A DNA stretch of 40,440 bases, taken from assembly GCA_017881445.1 (NCBI GenBank), contig JADGQX010000011.1, positions 1-40,440 on the forward strand. The letters are read 5' to 3'. Every line of letters starts with the position of its first letter. Position 1 is the first letter of the stretch. Origin of the DNA: Gemmatimonadota bacterium (GTDB lineage Bacteria > Gemmatimonadota > Gemmatimonadetes > Longimicrobiales > RSA9). The translations under genes and the position numbers were made by a program. The notes under the pieces are model-generated. The model was not told the DNA's origin, made no database searches, and saw nothing but the letters and a program-made list of their open reading frames with translations. Below, piece by piece: positions 23,506-30,148 of the stretch.

Positions 23506-24486
23506 TCACCGCAGGGGGCTGAGCCAGCGGATGCCGATGCGGTGCACGGCGCCGAAGTAGTTCAGGTTCTGGAAGGTGTAGTCCAGGGCAATGGCGCCGA
23601 GGGACAGCCCGCCGCCGACCTGGAGCGGGGCGAGTCCGCCGGAGCCCTGGGCACCGCTGAAGCCGACGCGGGCCACGGCGCCGAGTCGGCGGTTGGCGGC
23701 GGGGATCAGCCCGGCCTCCGCGCCGGCGACCAGACCGGAGGTGTGCTCCTTGAGCCCGGCGACGAAGTCGGCGGAAACGGCCATGCCGAGGCCGGAGGGA
23801 GTGCTGCGGGCGTAGCTCAGGCCGACGCGGGCCTCGGCCGGCAGCGGCGCGGCGGTGCTGTCGCCGCTGAGGGAGCCGCCGAAGTTGCGCAGCGAGGCTC
23901 CAACGGTCAGTGAGGGCAGCAGGCCGACCTGAGCGCCGAGGTCGAACATGGGCGCGCCGGAGCTGGCGCCGGCGATGGAGGTGGAGACGAAGCCCGCGCT
24001 GGCGCCGATGCGGACGCGGCCATGGGCCAGCGGATAGGAGGCGCCGAAGCGGGCGGCGGATTCCGTTGCGCTGACGGACTGTCCGGTGGCGGTTCCGCGC
24101 TGTCCGCCGAAGAGCGGGTCGGGCGTGAACTCCTCCACGCTGCCCCCGTTGAGGTAGGCAATGCCGGCGCCGAGGGCGAGGCGGCCCACATGGAAGGAGC
24201 CGGCGGCGGAACCGAAGGAGATGCCCTCGACCAGCGGCTCGAAGGCGGCGCCGGCCCCGGCATTGAAGGAGGCCAGCCCGGCCGGGTTGTAGAAGAGCAC
24301 GTCGGCGTCGCCGGTCATGCCGGTGTAGGCGCCGGAGAAGGAGGCCGCGCGACTGCCGGCGGGGAGCTGCAGCACCATGGCGCCGGCGACGCCGGCGCCG
24401 CTCTGGGCGTGGGCAGGTGTGGCCGCGGCGAGAGCGACCAGGGCGCCGGCTGCGGCGGCTGCGAGTCGGAATTGCGAGCGAATCAT
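23506..24486 (-). CDS. PorV/PorQ-like outer-membrane beta-barrel protein
   Basis: A 326-residue outer-membrane protein. A signal peptide ends near residue 27 (ATPAHA). The start of the mature part, GSRAASFSGAYTGMTGDADVLFYNPAGLASF, is the hallmark of the PorV/PorQ/UPF0164 family (FadL-like barrels). Alternating strands continue to an aromatic end, RIGIRWLSPLR. In Bacteroidota, PorV shuttles type IX secretion cargo from the translocon to the surface-attachment complex. The gene starts 3 bases after the stop of the S8 protease, with AGGAG inside that gene's end, so the two are translated together. I infer that the protease is its cargo. Confidence 0.85.
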   Translation of the reverse strand: MIRSQFRLAAAAAGALVALAAATPAHAQSGAGVAGAMVLQLPAGSRAASFSGAYTGMTGDADVLFYNPAGLASFNAGAGAAFEPLVEGISFGSAAGSFHVGRLALGAGIAYLNGGSVEEFTPDPLFGGQRGTATGQSVSATESAARFGASYPLAHGRVRIGASAGFVSTSIAGASSGAPMFDLGAQVGLLPSLTVGASLRNFGGSLSGDSTAAPLPAEARVGLSYARSTPSGLGMAVSADFVAGLKEHTSGLVAGAEAGLIPAANRRLGAVARVGFSGAQGSGGLAPLQVGGGLSLGAIALDYTFQNLNYFGAVHRIGIRWLSPLR

Positions 24487-24489
24487 GAG

Positions 24490-27400
24490 CTACTCCTGCG
24501 GGCTCGCGCCGGCGGCCGACGCAGTGGTGGCGATGAAGAGCTTCTGGCGGACCAGCTGGCCGCCGATGTTGAACACCACGAGGTAGATCCCCGGTGCCAC
24601 GGCGGCGCCCTGGTCGTTGGTGAGCTTCCAGTCGATGCGCCCGCCATTCTCGAGGCGGGGCAGCAGGTCCACGACACGGCGCCCGGTCAGCGAGTAAACC
24701 GCGGCCACGGTCGGGGCCTGGCTGAAGTTGAAGATCACGTGGCCGTGGTGGACCGGGTTCTCGCTCAGGGCGAAGGTCTCGCTCGCGCCCAGGACCGTGG
24801 TGACCGCCGGGGCGGAGGCCACGGTGCTGGCGCCGGTCCCGAGCTGGTCGGTGGCCAGCGAGCGGACGCCCAGCGTGTGGGTGGCCGTGGGCACGAGCGT
24901 GGCGGCGAAGCGGGCGCCGTTCGGTGCCTGCCCGCTCATCTCCACGGCCAGGATCAGCTGGGTCGTGGAGTTGGCCGGAACGCTCACGGAATCCAGGGTG
25001 AAGGTGACGCGGGTGGCAGTGGCGCTCAGCGCGGCCGTGGCCGCGCCGACCTGGGGCTCACCCGGGCTGAGCGTGCCGGAGCCGTCCACGTCGCGGAAGA
25101 GAACGAGGCGCGCGGCCGGGTCGTTGCCCGTGGCGTCGAAGGCGAGGGAGGTGATCTTCATGGCCTCGAAGCCGGTCACCTTGAGGGCGATGGTCAGCAG
25201 CGGCACGCGCGTCCCCTTGAGGCTGATCGTCGCCTTTGCGGGCGAGACGGAGGCGCCGGTGAGCGTGAGCACGGAGGGCGGGACCACCACCACCGAGATG
25301 CTGTCGCGGATCGCACCCACCGCCGCGATGATGAAGGCGCTGCCATTGGCGATGGCCCGGACCAGCCCCGTCGCGTCCACGGTCGCCACCGCGGTGTTGG
25401 AGGACGTCCAGGTGACCGCCAAGGCGAGTCGCACGCCCACGCCGTTGAAGACGGTGGCCGTCAGCCTGTCGGTGCCGCCGCGCACGAGGGTGTCCGCCCG
25501 GGGGCTGATGGTGACGCCGGCGACGGCATTGGGGTTGGTGTTCATGGCCGCGAGGGCGGCCCTCACGTTCAGCTTGCCGCCCCCCCACCAGTCCTGCGGC
25601 GCTCCGCCGACGCCGTAGGTGCGGGAGGTGAAGCCATCCTGGGTGGCGTTGACCGCCAGGATGGTCCGGATCTGGTCAGCGGTGAGGCTCTTGTTGAGCT
25701 GGAACATGAGGGCGATGGCACCGGTCACGTGCGGTGTCGCCATGCTCGTGCCCTCTTCGGCCCAGTGCTGGCCATCGACGGCGACCAGCGGGGCGCTGCC
25801 CGAGTTGATGACCACGTCGCGCGAGAGCGCGGACAGCACGGTGGCACCGGGCGCGGCGATGTCGGGCTTGCGACGGCCGTCGCGCGTGGGGCCGGGGCTG
25901 GAGAAATCCGCGAGGTCGCCCAGCACCGTATTGTCGATGAAATGGAAGGTGCCCGTTGCGGCCCGCCAGTTGGTGCGGCTGGTGAAGGCGCCGGCGGTGA
26001 TCACGGACTTCGCCGTGCCGGGCGTGCCCACGACGTAGCGGTTGTCGAAGCCGGCGAGGCCCGTGGCGGCCGCGCCGCCCACGCCCAGGTCGCCGCCGGT
26101 GAGCCAGAGGTGGTACATCCGGCCCGAGGGCGCGGAGCGGCCGGTGACCTGGATGGTCCAGGTGCCGGGCGCGGGGGTGCCCGCACTGGTCCCGCAGTCG
26201 TTGATCTCGATCTGCGCCTGGTTGTCGCCGTTGTTCGGGTTCGGTCCGGTCGAGGCGTTGTCGGCCACGATGGCGCCGCCGGAGTTGTCCTGGCCGCTGT
26301 TGGTGCCGCGCGCCGCCAGGTAGGAGGAGCCGTCCGGGCGGATGATGGTGAAGTCGAGGTTGTCCTGGCCGGAGTACCAGATCTCGATGTCCTCGGCATC
26401 GTTGCACTTGCCCGGGTTGGGCGTGTACTGCGGCACCGTGAAGGTGTACGCCTGCGTCTGGCCGGTCGCGATCACCGCTCCCGCGTGCAGCAGGTGCGCC
26501 GGCTGGGCGGAAACGCTGTTGCCGTTGGAGCCGTCGTTGCCGGCGGCGACCACGACGGCGAAGCTGTCTCGCGCCAGCAAGTCGAGCATCCGCTCCGGGT
26601 CGCTGGTGCCGTCGTGGGGGCCGAACTGCGCGCCCAGCGACAGGTTGACCACCGCGGCTTTGCCCAGCGCCCGGGCCTGCTGGTAGATCCAGGCCACGCC
26701 GTCGATGATCTGGTTGAAGCTGAAGCTGCCGTTGCCGCCCTTCACGACGATCAGGTCGGCGGCGGGCGCCACGCCGGCATACTGGTACTGCGTGCCGCTG
26801 CCGGCGGCGGCGCCGTTGCCGGCCGCGCTGCCGGCCACGTGCGTGCCGTGGCCCACCACGTCGTTCTCGGTGCAGGAGGCGGCGTTGCCATTGATGGCCT
26901 TCTGGATCGAGTCCTGCGTGCAGAGGTTGCCGTAGCTGAAGTTGCCGCCGAAGCTGCCAGCGGACCAGGCTCCGCCCGGGGCCGTGCCGGACGTGGTCTG
27001 GTCCCAGAGCTCGAGCAGGCGGGTCTTGCCGTTGCCATCCAGGAAGTCGCCGTGCCGGAAGTCGATGCCGGTGTCGTAGGTCCCGACGATGACCCCCTGT
27101 CCGGCGACGCCGGTCCAGACACTGCCCGCGTGCTGGCGCACCTCGTCCGCATGGATGGCGTGGACACCGGAGTCGTTCACGACCTTCACCCGGCGCGCCA
27201 CGGAGATGGAGACCAGCCCGCTGACGTGAGTGAGGGAATCCGCCAGGTCCAGCGGCACGGTGGCGGTGAGCAGGTAGCCGCCCTGGGGTGTGCGCACGAC
27301 CGTGCCCACCCGGGCGCCGCGGTCGCGGAGTGCTTCCAGGGCGACCTGGTCGCTCACCTCGAGGAAGAGCCCGACCTGCGGCCGGCCCCGCTCGTCCCGG

Positions 27401-27612
27401 TCCACCGCCAGCAGCCCGGCCAGCGGCAGGGGCGCGTCCGTGGGGAGCACGTCGAAGCGGCCGCTCGGCGCCGCCGCCTTGCGCACCTCGGGGCTGATGA
27501 GCTGCTTCAGTGCCAGGTCGATGCGGGGGCCGACCTGCTGGGCGGCGGCGGCGAGGGGCAGCGCGAGAGCGGCCAGCAGGGCCAGCAACATCCGGGGCAG
27601 TCGAGACGTCAT
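24490..27612 (-). CDS. S8 subtilisin-like protease with Big_2-like and C-terminal sorting-like domains
   Basis: A 1040-residue exported protease. In order: signal peptide (1-25), propeptide-like region (about 60-145), and S8 catalytic domain (about 165-690) with D180 in GTYDTGID, H255 in GHGTHVAG, oxyanion N359 in AAGNDGS and S623 in EEGTSMATPH. A long insert (about 375-510) carries a pre-peptidase-like domain. A Big_2-like Ig domain follows (about 700-780, TSSNTAVATVDATGLV). The end (about 955-1030) resembles the FlgD-Ig/type IX sorting domain: FALSENPV, VYSLTGRRVVDL, APGIYLVVF, RQKLFI. Its ATG overlaps the stop of the upstream lipoprotein (ATGA). Confidence 0.92.
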   Translation of the reverse strand: MTSRLPRMLLALLAALALPLAAAAQQVGPRIDLALKQLISPEVRKAAAPSGRFDVLPTDAPLPLAGLLAVDRDERGRPQVGLFLEVSDQVALEALRDRGARVGTVVRTPQGGYLLTATVPLDLADSLTHVSGLVSISVARRVKVVNDSGVHAIHADEVRQHAGSVWTGVAGQGVIVGTYDTGIDFRHGDFLDGNGKTRLLELWDQTTSGTAPGGAWSAGSFGGNFSYGNLCTQDSIQKAINGNAASCTENDVVGHGTHVAGSAAGNGAAAGSGTQYQYAGVAPAADLIVVKGGNGSFSFNQIIDGVAWIYQQARALGKAAVVNLSLGAQFGPHDGTSDPERMLDLLARDSFAVVVAAGNDGSNGNSVSAQPAHLLHAGAVIATGQTQAYTFTVPQYTPNPGKCNDAEDIEIWYSGQDNLDFTIIRPDGSSYLAARGTNSGQDNSGGAIVADNASTGPNPNNGDNQAQIEINDCGTSAGTPAPGTWTIQVTGRSAPSGRMYHLWLTGGDLGVGGAAATGLAGFDNRYVVGTPGTAKSVITAGAFTSRTNWRAATGTFHFIDNTVLGDLADFSSPGPTRDGRRKPDIAAPGATVLSALSRDVVINSGSAPLVAVDGQHWAEEGTSMATPHVTGAIALMFQLNKSLTADQIRTILAVNATQDGFTSRTYGVGGAPQDWWGGGKLNVRAALAAMNTNPNAVAGVTISPRADTLVRGGTDRLTATVFNGVGVRLALAVTWTSSNTAVATVDATGLVRAIANGSAFIIAAVGAIRDSISVVVVPPSVLTLTGASVSPAKATISLKGTRVPLLTIALKVTGFEAMKITSLAFDATGNDPAARLVLFRDVDGSGTLSPGEPQVGAATAALSATATRVTFTLDSVSVPANSTTQLILAVEMSGQAPNGARFAATLVPTATHTLGVRSLATDQLGTGASTVASAPAVTTVLGASETFALSENPVHHGHVIFNFSQAPTVAAVYSLTGRRVVDLLPRLENGGRIDWKLTNDQGAAVAPGIYLVVFNIGGQLVRQKLFIATTASAAGASPQE

Positions 27613-28004
27613 GCAGCACCATCGGGGGCAGAGGTGACGGACGCCCGGCCGCGCGACCGGCCCTGAGGTCGCGCCGAGCGGGAAAGCTCCATGTGCCGTA
27701 CGAAGGAAAGTCCGGCGACGGCGGCGAGGCTCCCGCCGGCCACCTCGCCCGTGAGCAGCTCTCCCGTCACCGTGCCCAGGCGCAGGCCCGCCCGCTCCAG
27801 CGCCTGGCGGTCGGCCGCGTCCAGCGGCCGCGTCGTGCGAATGAAGACACCGACGACCATGTCCCCCCCCGACGCCGCAATGGCGCGCAGCCGCACGTCC
27901 ATCTTGGCGGCGCGCGCCGGATCCAGCCCGCCCGGCTGGCGGGCATGCGTGCAGGCGAAGCCGGCGACGAGAAGCACGGTCAGTAGGGCGAGCGACACCC
28001 GCAT
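27609..28004 (-). CDS. Lipoprotein resembling a subtilisin propeptide / I9 inhibitor
   Basis: A 131-residue lipoprotein (VAGFAC lipobox, C20). The mature part contains VVGVFIRTTR, LERAGLRLGTVTGELLTGEV and LAAVAGLSFVRHMELS. This order matches the propeptide region of the downstream protease (QVGLFLEVSD, LRDRGARVGTV, LLTATV, LTHVSGLVSISVAR). Such I9-like folds act as chaperone-inhibitors of subtilisins. I infer a membrane-tethered inhibitor or folding helper for its neighbour. AGGG lies 8 bases before the ATG at 28004; another ATG is at 28010. Its stop overlaps the protease start. The C-terminus is basic and polar. Confidence 0.75.
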   Translation of the reverse strand: MRVSLALLTVLLVAGFACTHARQPGGLDPARAAKMDVRLRAIAASGGDMVVGVFIRTTRPLDAADRQALERAGLRLGTVTGELLTGEVAGGSLAAVAGLSFVRHMELSRSARPQGRSRGRASVTSAPDGAA

Positions 28005-28086
28005 TGACATTTCCCTGAGAAACGGCGGTCGACGGGAGCCGTCAACCGCAGGGAAGCACCTACACCGGCGGCGAGTGCCGGTTCCG

Positions 28087-29364
28087 TCAGGCCCGGGCGG
28101 TAGCCAGGGCGCGGGATTGCAGCGCGCCGGCGATGAGCCGGGCGCGCTCGCCGGGCTCGCCGGGCAGGGTCCGTCCGCTGCCTGCGGCACTGGCCTGCGT
28201 GACCTCGACCTCCAGGGCGGCGACCAGGTCGGGGTAGCCGCCGCGCCGCGCGGCGTCCAGGCCATCGCGCAGGTGGTCGCGGGCCACGTCCGGAACGCCC
28301 ACCAGCAGGCAGGCGCGCGCGAGCCGCAGATGCATTTCGGCGGCGGGGCGGGGGGGCGGGGACTCCGCCCGGGCGTCCCGGAGCAGGCGCTTGCGCGCCA
28401 GGGCGAACTCCTCGAGCCGGCCCGCCTCCGCGTAGCTGCCGGCCACGTCGGCGTGGGCGCGCCAGAGGTCGGCGGCCGGCAGGGCCTCGCTCAGGAGCAT
28501 CTCGTAGGCGCGCAGGGCGGCGTCCAGCAGCCCCAGCGTGCGGAACGCGCCGCCGGCCGCCTCGAGGGCGGCGGCGCGACACGGGGAGTCCGACGCGTTC
28601 TCCAGCGCGGTCCACGCATGCTCGACGGCCGCCTCGGCATCCCCCGCCGCCAGAGCGGATTCGGCCAGGCCGGCGAAGGCCAGGCTCTGCACCTGCCGGT
28701 CGGCCCAGCTCCGCCCCTGCCGCAGCACCTGCTCGAGCATGGCGCTCGCGCCGGCGCCATCGCCGCGGCGCAGCAACAGCCTGGCCCCGGCGCAGGCGGC
28801 CTTGGCCCACTCGCCGTGCGCGCCTGCCGCGGTCGCCGCCGTGGCGGCGGCGCTCAGGTGCTGCTCCGCCTCCTCTTCCCGCCCGTGGCGGAAGCAGAGC
28901 GTGCCCAGCCGGCGGAGTGCGGCCGCGGCGGCGGCGGCGCGCCCGAACGCCTGCGCCAGCTCCAGGCCGCTGCGGTAGAACTCCTCCGCCGCGCAGGCGT
29001 GTCCCGCCTCCTCCGCGACATCCCCCAGCCCCGCCACGGCCGCAGCCAGATCCGCGGGCGAGCGACTCTCGATCTCGTGCAGGTAGCGGGAGATGCGCAG
29101 GCGCTCCGGGTCGCGGGCGGGCAGGTGCCCCAGCTCCTCGCGGATCGCCTCGACCTGGCGGGCGTAGGAGGCCGCGCTCACACCTTCCAGGCCGAGCGCC
29201 AGTACTCGGCGCAGCGGACGGAGCGCCAGGAACCGGAGCCGCGCGCGCCGCGCCAGCTCGGAGTCGCGCTCCCGGCCCTCCAGGTCCCGGAAGATGAGCC
29301 AGCCGGGGAACGCGGCTTCGCGCACCGGGGCCGGCAGCGGGGCGATGCGATCATAGCGCGCCAT
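28087..29364 (-). CDS. TPR-repeat protein
   Basis: A 425-residue all-helical protein of tetratricopeptide-like repeats, very rich in Ala. Repeats are visible from about residue 75 onward, for example AAEEFYRSGLELAQAFGR, LGTLCFRHGREEEAEQHL and ALRAYEMLLSEALPAADLW. There is no signal peptide or membrane helix, so it is probably cytosolic and binds a protein partner. It starts 4 bases after the stop of the regulator gene, so the two are co-translated. The ATG at 29364 is chosen because the frame upstream lies inside the regulator. Co-occurrence suggests that it senses or modulates the regulator's state. Confidence 0.8.
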   Translation of the reverse strand: MARYDRIAPLPAPVREAAFPGWLIFRDLEGRERDSELARRARLRFLALRPLRRVLALGLEGVSAASYARQVEAIREELGHLPARDPERLRISRYLHEIESRSPADLAAAVAGLGDVAEEAGHACAAEEFYRSGLELAQAFGRAAAAAAALRRLGTLCFRHGREEEAEQHLSAAATAATAAGAHGEWAKAACAGARLLLRRGDGAGASAMLEQVLRQGRSWADRQVQSLAFAGLAESALAAGDAEAAVEHAWTALENASDSPCRAAALEAAGGAFRTLGLLDAALRAYEMLLSEALPAADLWRAHADVAGSYAEAGRLEEFALARKRLLRDARAESPPPRPAAEMHLRLARACLLVGVPDVARDHLRDGLDAARRGGYPDLVAALEVEVTQASAAGSGRTLPGEPGERARLIAGALQSRALATARA

Positions 29365-29368
29365 GCCG

Positions 29369-30148
29369 TTACTCCAGCGCGAGAGCTGCTGTGCCCGGAC
29401 ACTCGGCCACCATCGCGTCGAGCGCCCGCTGGAACCCGGTGGCCGTCCGCAGCGGTGAGGGCCGGCCGCCGATCGTCGCCTTGATCGCCCGCCGGAAGGC
29501 TGCGCCCGACGAGTAGCCGAGCTGCTCCGCGACGGATTCCACACTGCGCCCCGGCTCCAGCAGCCAGCGCAGGCCGTAGAGCACCCGCAGCCAGAGGAGC
29601 AGCCGCCCGGGCGTGGGCAGGCCCCAACGCTGGCAGCGCCGCTCCAGCGTCGAGACCGACATGGCGAAGGCCGATGCCAGTCCCGGTACCTGGATGTGCG
29701 TGGGAATGTGCGTCGCCGCGTGCAGCACCAGCTCCAGCGCCCGGGGCGACAGCGGCTCCCGCAGCCGCGCGGCCAGCGTCGCCGGAATGCCGCGGCGCAG
29801 CGCCGATTCCAGCACGCCCGACACCAGCTCGGCGTCCTCCGCCTCCCGCGAGACCACCACGTCCGCCGCCCCTGCCTTGCCGATGCGCAGCAGCTCGCGC
29901 CCGTCCATCTCCCCCCACACCACCACCGGCGTCAGCGGGTAGCGCTGGGAGAAGCGGAAGACCCGCAGCGCGCCATCCTTCCGGGTCTCCGCGTGGAGGT
30001 CCGCGACCACCGCCGCCACCGGCTGCTTGCGCACGGCGCGATAGAGGTCACGCCAACTCTCCGCCCAGGCAACCTCATGGGCCGAGAGCGCCGCCCGCAG
30101 ACAATCACGGTCGGATGAATTCGGGAGGAGAGCCGCGATCAGGGGCAT
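29369..30148 (-). CDS. AraC-type transcriptional regulator with receiver-like N-terminus
   Basis: A 259-residue regulator. Residues 1-115 look like a receiver fold (AALLPNSSDRDCLRAAL, VAAVVADLHAE with a possible phospho-Asp, PVVVWGEMDGRELLRIGKAGAADVVV), but the usual late Lys is not obvious, so it may not be phosphorylated. Residues 150-250 hold two helix-turn-helix motifs of the AraC family: LASAFAMSVSTLERRCQRW and SVESVAEQLGYSSGAAFRRA. The translation start lies in a small hairpin (30152-30169). It leads a pair with the TPR protein. The protease trio lies 82 bases beyond on the same strand and is the obvious candidate target. Confidence 0.85.
   Translation of the reverse strand: MPLIAALLPNSSDRDCLRAALSAHEVAWAESWRDLYRAVRKQPVAAVVADLHAETRKDGALRVFRFSQRYPLTPVVVWGEMDGRELLRIGKAGAADVVVSREAEDAELVSGVLESALRRGIPATLAARLREPLSPRALELVLHAATHIPTHIQVPGLASAFAMSVSTLERRCQRWGLPTPGRLLLWLRVLYGLRWLLEPGRSVESVAEQLGYSSGAAFRRAIKATIGGRPSPLRTATGFQRALDAMVAECPGTAALALE

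Follow-up and report, generated by a model that had tools for sequence, protein, structure and literature searches.

A subtilisin-like protease gene and the outer membrane barrel gene that follows it probably encode a type IX secretion (T9SS) cargo-carrier pair, in which a PorV-type barrel is dedicated to one cargo bearing a type A C-terminal sorting domain (CTD) and export proceeds via a shared SprA. Together with a small upstream gene, the two form a trio on the minus strand, positions 23506 to 28010 of the window, that is, of the whole 40,440-nucleotide stretch of Gemmatimonadota DNA that was analyzed (Table 1). The locus unites a type A CTD with a PorV-family barrel in the gene layout of a cognate pair, and it is a variant of type IX secretion, not a new system. 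The close packing of the three genes had been described in an initial annotation of the sequence, and both junctions were confirmed as listed there.

TABLE 1 Features of the trio and its gene junctions, in window coordinates
Feature	Position	Strand	Description and evidence
Small exported protein, probable lipoprotein, 131-133 aa	27609..28010	-	One domain resembling the N-terminal prodomain of the protease; hhalign; ortholog in genome G002
S8 subtilase, 1040 aa	24490..27612	-	Signal peptide, prodomain, catalytic domain, Big_2 Ig domain, C-terminal T9SS sorting domain
Type A T9SS CTD	24523..24771	-	TIGR04183, family CTD model, fold matches, near-C-terminal Lys
PorV/PorQ-family 14-strand outer membrane barrel, 326 aa; candidate cognate carrier for the protease CTD	23506..24486	-	NF033709, AF2 model, PDB matches
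ATGA stop/start overlap, small protein/protease	27609..27612	-	
3-base gap (CTC), protease stop to barrel ATG	24487..24489	-	

All three genes showed a coding-like third-position GC content, and a promoter and terminator scan found none. In the related genomes G001 and G006, an ATGA overlap occupies the position of the 3-base gap before the barrel gene. Upstream of the trio and on the same strand (window positions 28087 to 30148) lie genes for a TPR protein and an AraC-type HTH protein, a possible regulator, and these are kept beside the trio in G002 and G009.

A Pfam scan of the protease identified Peptidase_S8 (E value of 1.8e-42) and Big_2 (E value of 2.9e-11) domains, and the catalytic D, H, and S motifs are intact (DTGID at residue 180, GHGTHVAG at 254, and GTSMATPH at 621). 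Its PHROG matches were to generic subtilase and Ig families only and were discounted. The CTD matched TIGR04183, the "T9SS type A sorting domain" model, at a borderline level, with 25.4 bits in the genome search (cutoff, 23) and 21.7 bits in the whole-protein scan, and it was the sole over-cutoff match to that model in its own genome. The family CTD model described below gave 76.4 bits. A lysine near the C terminus (RQKLFIA) is invariant in alignment A4, and such a lysine is important in type A CTDs (PMC10994853). The fold expected of such a CTD is a 7-strand beta-sandwich. A modest structure model of the domain, with a mean pLDDT of 64 and values of about 80 to 93 across the core, had T9SS CTDs (PorU, RgpB, PorZ, and NucA) as its best fold matches, these being weak with E values of about 0.02. 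Sub-cutoff TIGR04183 matches on contigs C206 and C399 were disregarded as dubious or foreign, as was the low-GC contig G059:C226. An isolated 80-codon CTD fragment at G000:C318:6955-7134 (L192), where relatives have a second subtilase, appears to be a degenerate copy.

The barrel was modeled with AlphaFold (AF2) as 14 strands with a mean pLDDT of 84, and the top PDB matches of the model were 8gl6_F (E value of 4e-12) and 6h3i_F (E value of 3e-11), both of them PorV in SprA complexes. The fold search gave matches where a phmmer search of the barrel against PDB sequences gave none. By profile, the barrel scored 74 bits against NF033709 (PorV_fam), which is under the curated cutoff of 90 and counts against our reading, and 56 bits against PorQ; its orthologs in G009, G008, and G010 score above 90 with the PorV/PorQ family profile. 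No match to PorP/SprF was found in a Pfam scan of the barrel. FadL-type channels (FadL/TodX) also matched the structure model and, taken with the modest CTD scores, would fit a protein of another kind, a FadL-like transporter whose substrates are peptides or lipids that the protease sets free, in which case the CTD would be an ordinary FlgD-like Ig domain. We consider this very improbable, because those channels rank below PorV, the CTD matches T9SS domains by profile as well as by fold (with the weak fold E values given above), SprA is present in the genome, and barrels of this type also pair with CTD proteins carrying nonprotease passengers.

The adjacency of protease and barrel genes is kept in several related genera, beyond chance. 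The complete trio is found in G002, with matching flanking genes on both sides, split there by a contig break (L084 and L047), and the protease and barrel occur together in G009 (two copies), G010, G007, G006, and a locus of a Gemmatimonadetes metagenome-assembled genome (L102). A CTD model (A2) was built from CTD genes of this kind, and 61 related genomes were searched with it, scores above 70 bits being called strong. There were 25 strong CTD genes, 22 of which have a PorV-family barrel directly downstream, a count that is partly circular because the seeds of the model were chosen beside barrels. One of the remaining three is truncated where its contig ends; the other two, G011:C47 and G002:C556, the latter a protease paralog, have no adjoining barrel and count against a dedicated carrier. 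With the independent model TIGR04183, all six over-cutoff matches in the family had a barrel partner, which in one case lay across a contig break.

The pairing extends to other passengers. In G001, a Sortilin/BNR propeller replaces the protease before an orthologous barrel that is 51% identical to the barrel of the trio, and protease residues 697 to 1027, from the Ig domain to the CTD, align at 48% identity to the Sortilin/BNR protein. This passenger swap indicates that the CTD and barrel travel as a module independent of the passenger. Pairing is a general cargo-carrier rule, and the original idea of a unit for a single surface protease was too narrow. Distances among CTDs and among their barrels were correlated with an r of 0.93, a value reached in 0 of 5,000 shuffles, and, when partners were shuffled within genomes, in 1 of 5,000, with a mean r of 0.62 versus 0.93; linkage (co-inheritance) alone could produce such a correlation.

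The drop on within-genome shuffling, the persistence of pairing across duplicated pairs (G010 and G001 have several CTD-barrel pairs each), and the retention of barrel and CTD together despite a change of passenger all argue against an account in which the barrel is an interchangeable PorV-family carrier, any barrel serves any CTD, and the pairing reflects dosage or an inherited ancestral operon of a CTD-protein gene and porV. That account draws on the cross-talk known between similar type B cargo/carrier pairs (PMC12618676), on the barrel-less protease paralog in G002, and on the wide distribution of an extra barrel linked to era, and we regard it as unlikely. A recurrent cassette (L085, L088, and L089) consists of a TonB receptor, a CTD protein of about 1,260 amino acids, a PorV-family barrel, and a GWxTD-domain protein, with the TonB and some of the GWxTD assignments made by eye. 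Proteins of 150 to 180 amino acids, one in many genomes, showed a weak partial CTD-like match at model positions 41 to 94.

The genome that contains the trio also encodes SprA, on contig C127. The protein matched PF14349 over the cutoff and TIGR04189 at 469.9 bits (cutoff, 200), and it is at least 1,987 amino acids long, running off the contig end. Across the relatives, SprA was found in 14 of 14 genomes with strong CTDs versus 23 of 47 others (Fisher P value of 3.6e-4, uncorrected for kinship). Searches for GldN in the trio's own genome and for GldM in ten genomes gave no match, and the FCB positive-control genomes gave no match either. Many SprA-positive genomes of the related family f2 have no recognizable strong type A CTD. 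In several genomes (L011, L092, and L093), sprA adjoins type IV pilus genes (pilB/pilT/pilC-like) and an LptF/LptG-like gene, as judged by eye.

The initial annotation had proposed a self-contained export-and-control unit, to be abandoned if the C-terminal domain matched no sorting domain, the genome had no type IX translocon, or the neighborhood was not conserved. The CTD does match, SprA is present, and protease-barrel adjacency is kept in relatives, so on none of these counts does the proposal fail, and its PorV-like barrel has a PorV fold. What cannot be kept is the self-containment, since SprA is encoded elsewhere in the genome, on another contig.

A further PorV-family barrel gene was seen directly 3' of an Era GTPase gene (L012:1164-2366, G000:C76), and an era-linked barrel of this family recurs in 25 loci among those examined, including other genomes. 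This protein is a candidate for the group's general PorV or PorQ; its presence in the same genome, where it might act as a general carrier, counts against a private carrier for the protease. The occurrence of an era-linked barrel here and in many SprA-positive relatives would also suit a barrel in the trio that acts as surface anchor or receptor of the protease, with export by another PorV, such as the era-linked one, and for type B cargo the carrier is known to act as the anchor once export is complete (PMC12618676, PMC9143113). However, the type B export carrier and anchor are one and the same PorP/SprF-type protein, and the best structural matches of the trio's barrel are PorV bound in SprA; such a division of labor therefore seems to us quite improbable.

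Our preferred reading, that of a carrier dedicated to the protease, can be set beside the cryo-electron microscopy structures from Flavobacterium johnsoniae, in which loops of PorV hold on to the type A CTD within SprA before PorV exits sideways with the cargo (PMC10994853). Here, we infer that the protease, which has a signal peptide, would cross the inner membrane by Sec. The dedicated PorV-type barrel would dock at the side opening of the shared SprA and, within the SprA pore, bind the type A CTD through its extracellular loops. The loaded barrel would then exit SprA laterally and hold the protease on the cell surface, so that the barrel would be the protease's own carrier and likely also its anchor. 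Coupled translation would supply carrier and cargo together.

The small gene at the head of the trio appears to be an accessory. The open reading frame at 27609 to 28004 encodes 131 amino acids, and an alternative in-frame ATG lies at 28010. The protein is similar to the prodomain at the N terminus of the protease itself (hhalign probability of 96% and E value of 4.5e-9 against protease prodomains), and its lipobox (AGFAC) is marginal only. Subtilisin propeptides and stand-alone prodomain inhibitors are proteins of a known kind, and the small protein is like them in resembling the prodomain of its own protease; it differs in being separately encoded and probably lipid anchored, with a predicted role, and in occurring in two genomes. 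It probably serves as an extra, separately encoded prodomain, helping to fold the protease or holding it inactive before arrival at the surface. An ortholog with 39% identity is present in G002. The gene is absent in G009, where the gap between the protease gene and the one before it is only about 50 bases, and it was not seen at the G001 locus. Among the genomes compared it thus occurs in two in all, the source genome and G002, which is why we treat it as accessory. The initial annotation had made a cognate inhibitor or folding helper part of the unit. With the gene seen in a single relative and a prodomain in the protease itself, that part of the proposal, like the self-contained and single-protease parts, is not supported in its original form, and control of the protease by the small protein is presumptive, while the CTD, the PorV fold, SprA, and the conserved neighborhood stand.

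CTD-barrel pairs were also found in other phyla. A member of the Margulisbacteria has a subtilase with a type A CTD (35.5 bits) whose gene overlaps a barrel gene (139.6 bits), and pairs of the same arrangement are present in Kapaibacterium and in WOR-3, the WOR-3 CTD being recognized by our own model. On plasmid pRMAR01 of Rhodothermus marinus (L197, NC_013502.1), a cultured organism, the genes for a 1,132-amino-acid CTD protein (RMAR_RS14115) and, downstream of it, a PorV/PorQ protein (RMAR_RS14110; 215.9 bits) overlap by 29 bases. A search for SprA gave a match in the Kapaibacterium genome, a weak one in that of WOR-3, and none in the Margulisbacteria genome searched.

In the porU-porV arrangement of Bacteroidota, a CTD-protein gene lies upstream of porV, and the trio resembles it in having a CTD-protein gene 5' of a PorV-family gene. 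It differs in its passenger, a subtilase, and the other paired cargo that was scanned is without the C25 sortase domain; an identification of the large paired CTD proteins as PorU was rejected, as they have no C25 domain and their matches are confined to the CTD. The barrel shares its fold, its family, type A CTD cargo, and SprA in the genome with PorV of the Bacteroidota T9SS (F. johnsoniae and Porphyromonas gingivalis). In published experiments on the Bacteroidota studied, however, one PorV serves all type A CTDs and dedicated carriers serve type B only, whereas here there is a separate barrel per cargo, encoded by close or overlapping genes. In this respect the locus is like that of type B cargo, whose cognate PorP/SprF carriers are commonly encoded directly downstream (PMC12618676), one carrier per cargo (PMC12618676, PMC9143113), and it differs from that system in combining a type A CTD (TIGR04183) with a carrier of the PorV/PorQ family. 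We found no description of cognate PorV-family carriers for type A CTDs in the literature searched, the coverage of which left out preprints and most subscription papers.

It is conceivable, if rather doubtful, that outside the Bacteroidia each type A cargo of the T9SS has one private PorV, a barrel that both carries it through export and anchors it permanently at the surface, possibly with an SprA that works without a recognizable GldLM motor. If the genes of several other phyla do follow a rule of one PorV-family barrel for each type A cargo, the one-PorV picture would have to change. The pairing would also help to predict type IX cargo where CTD models are weak, by looking upstream of PorV-family genes. 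Its recurrence in relatives and in other phyla makes a private carrier for each cargo a testable proposition, including in the cultured R. marinus.
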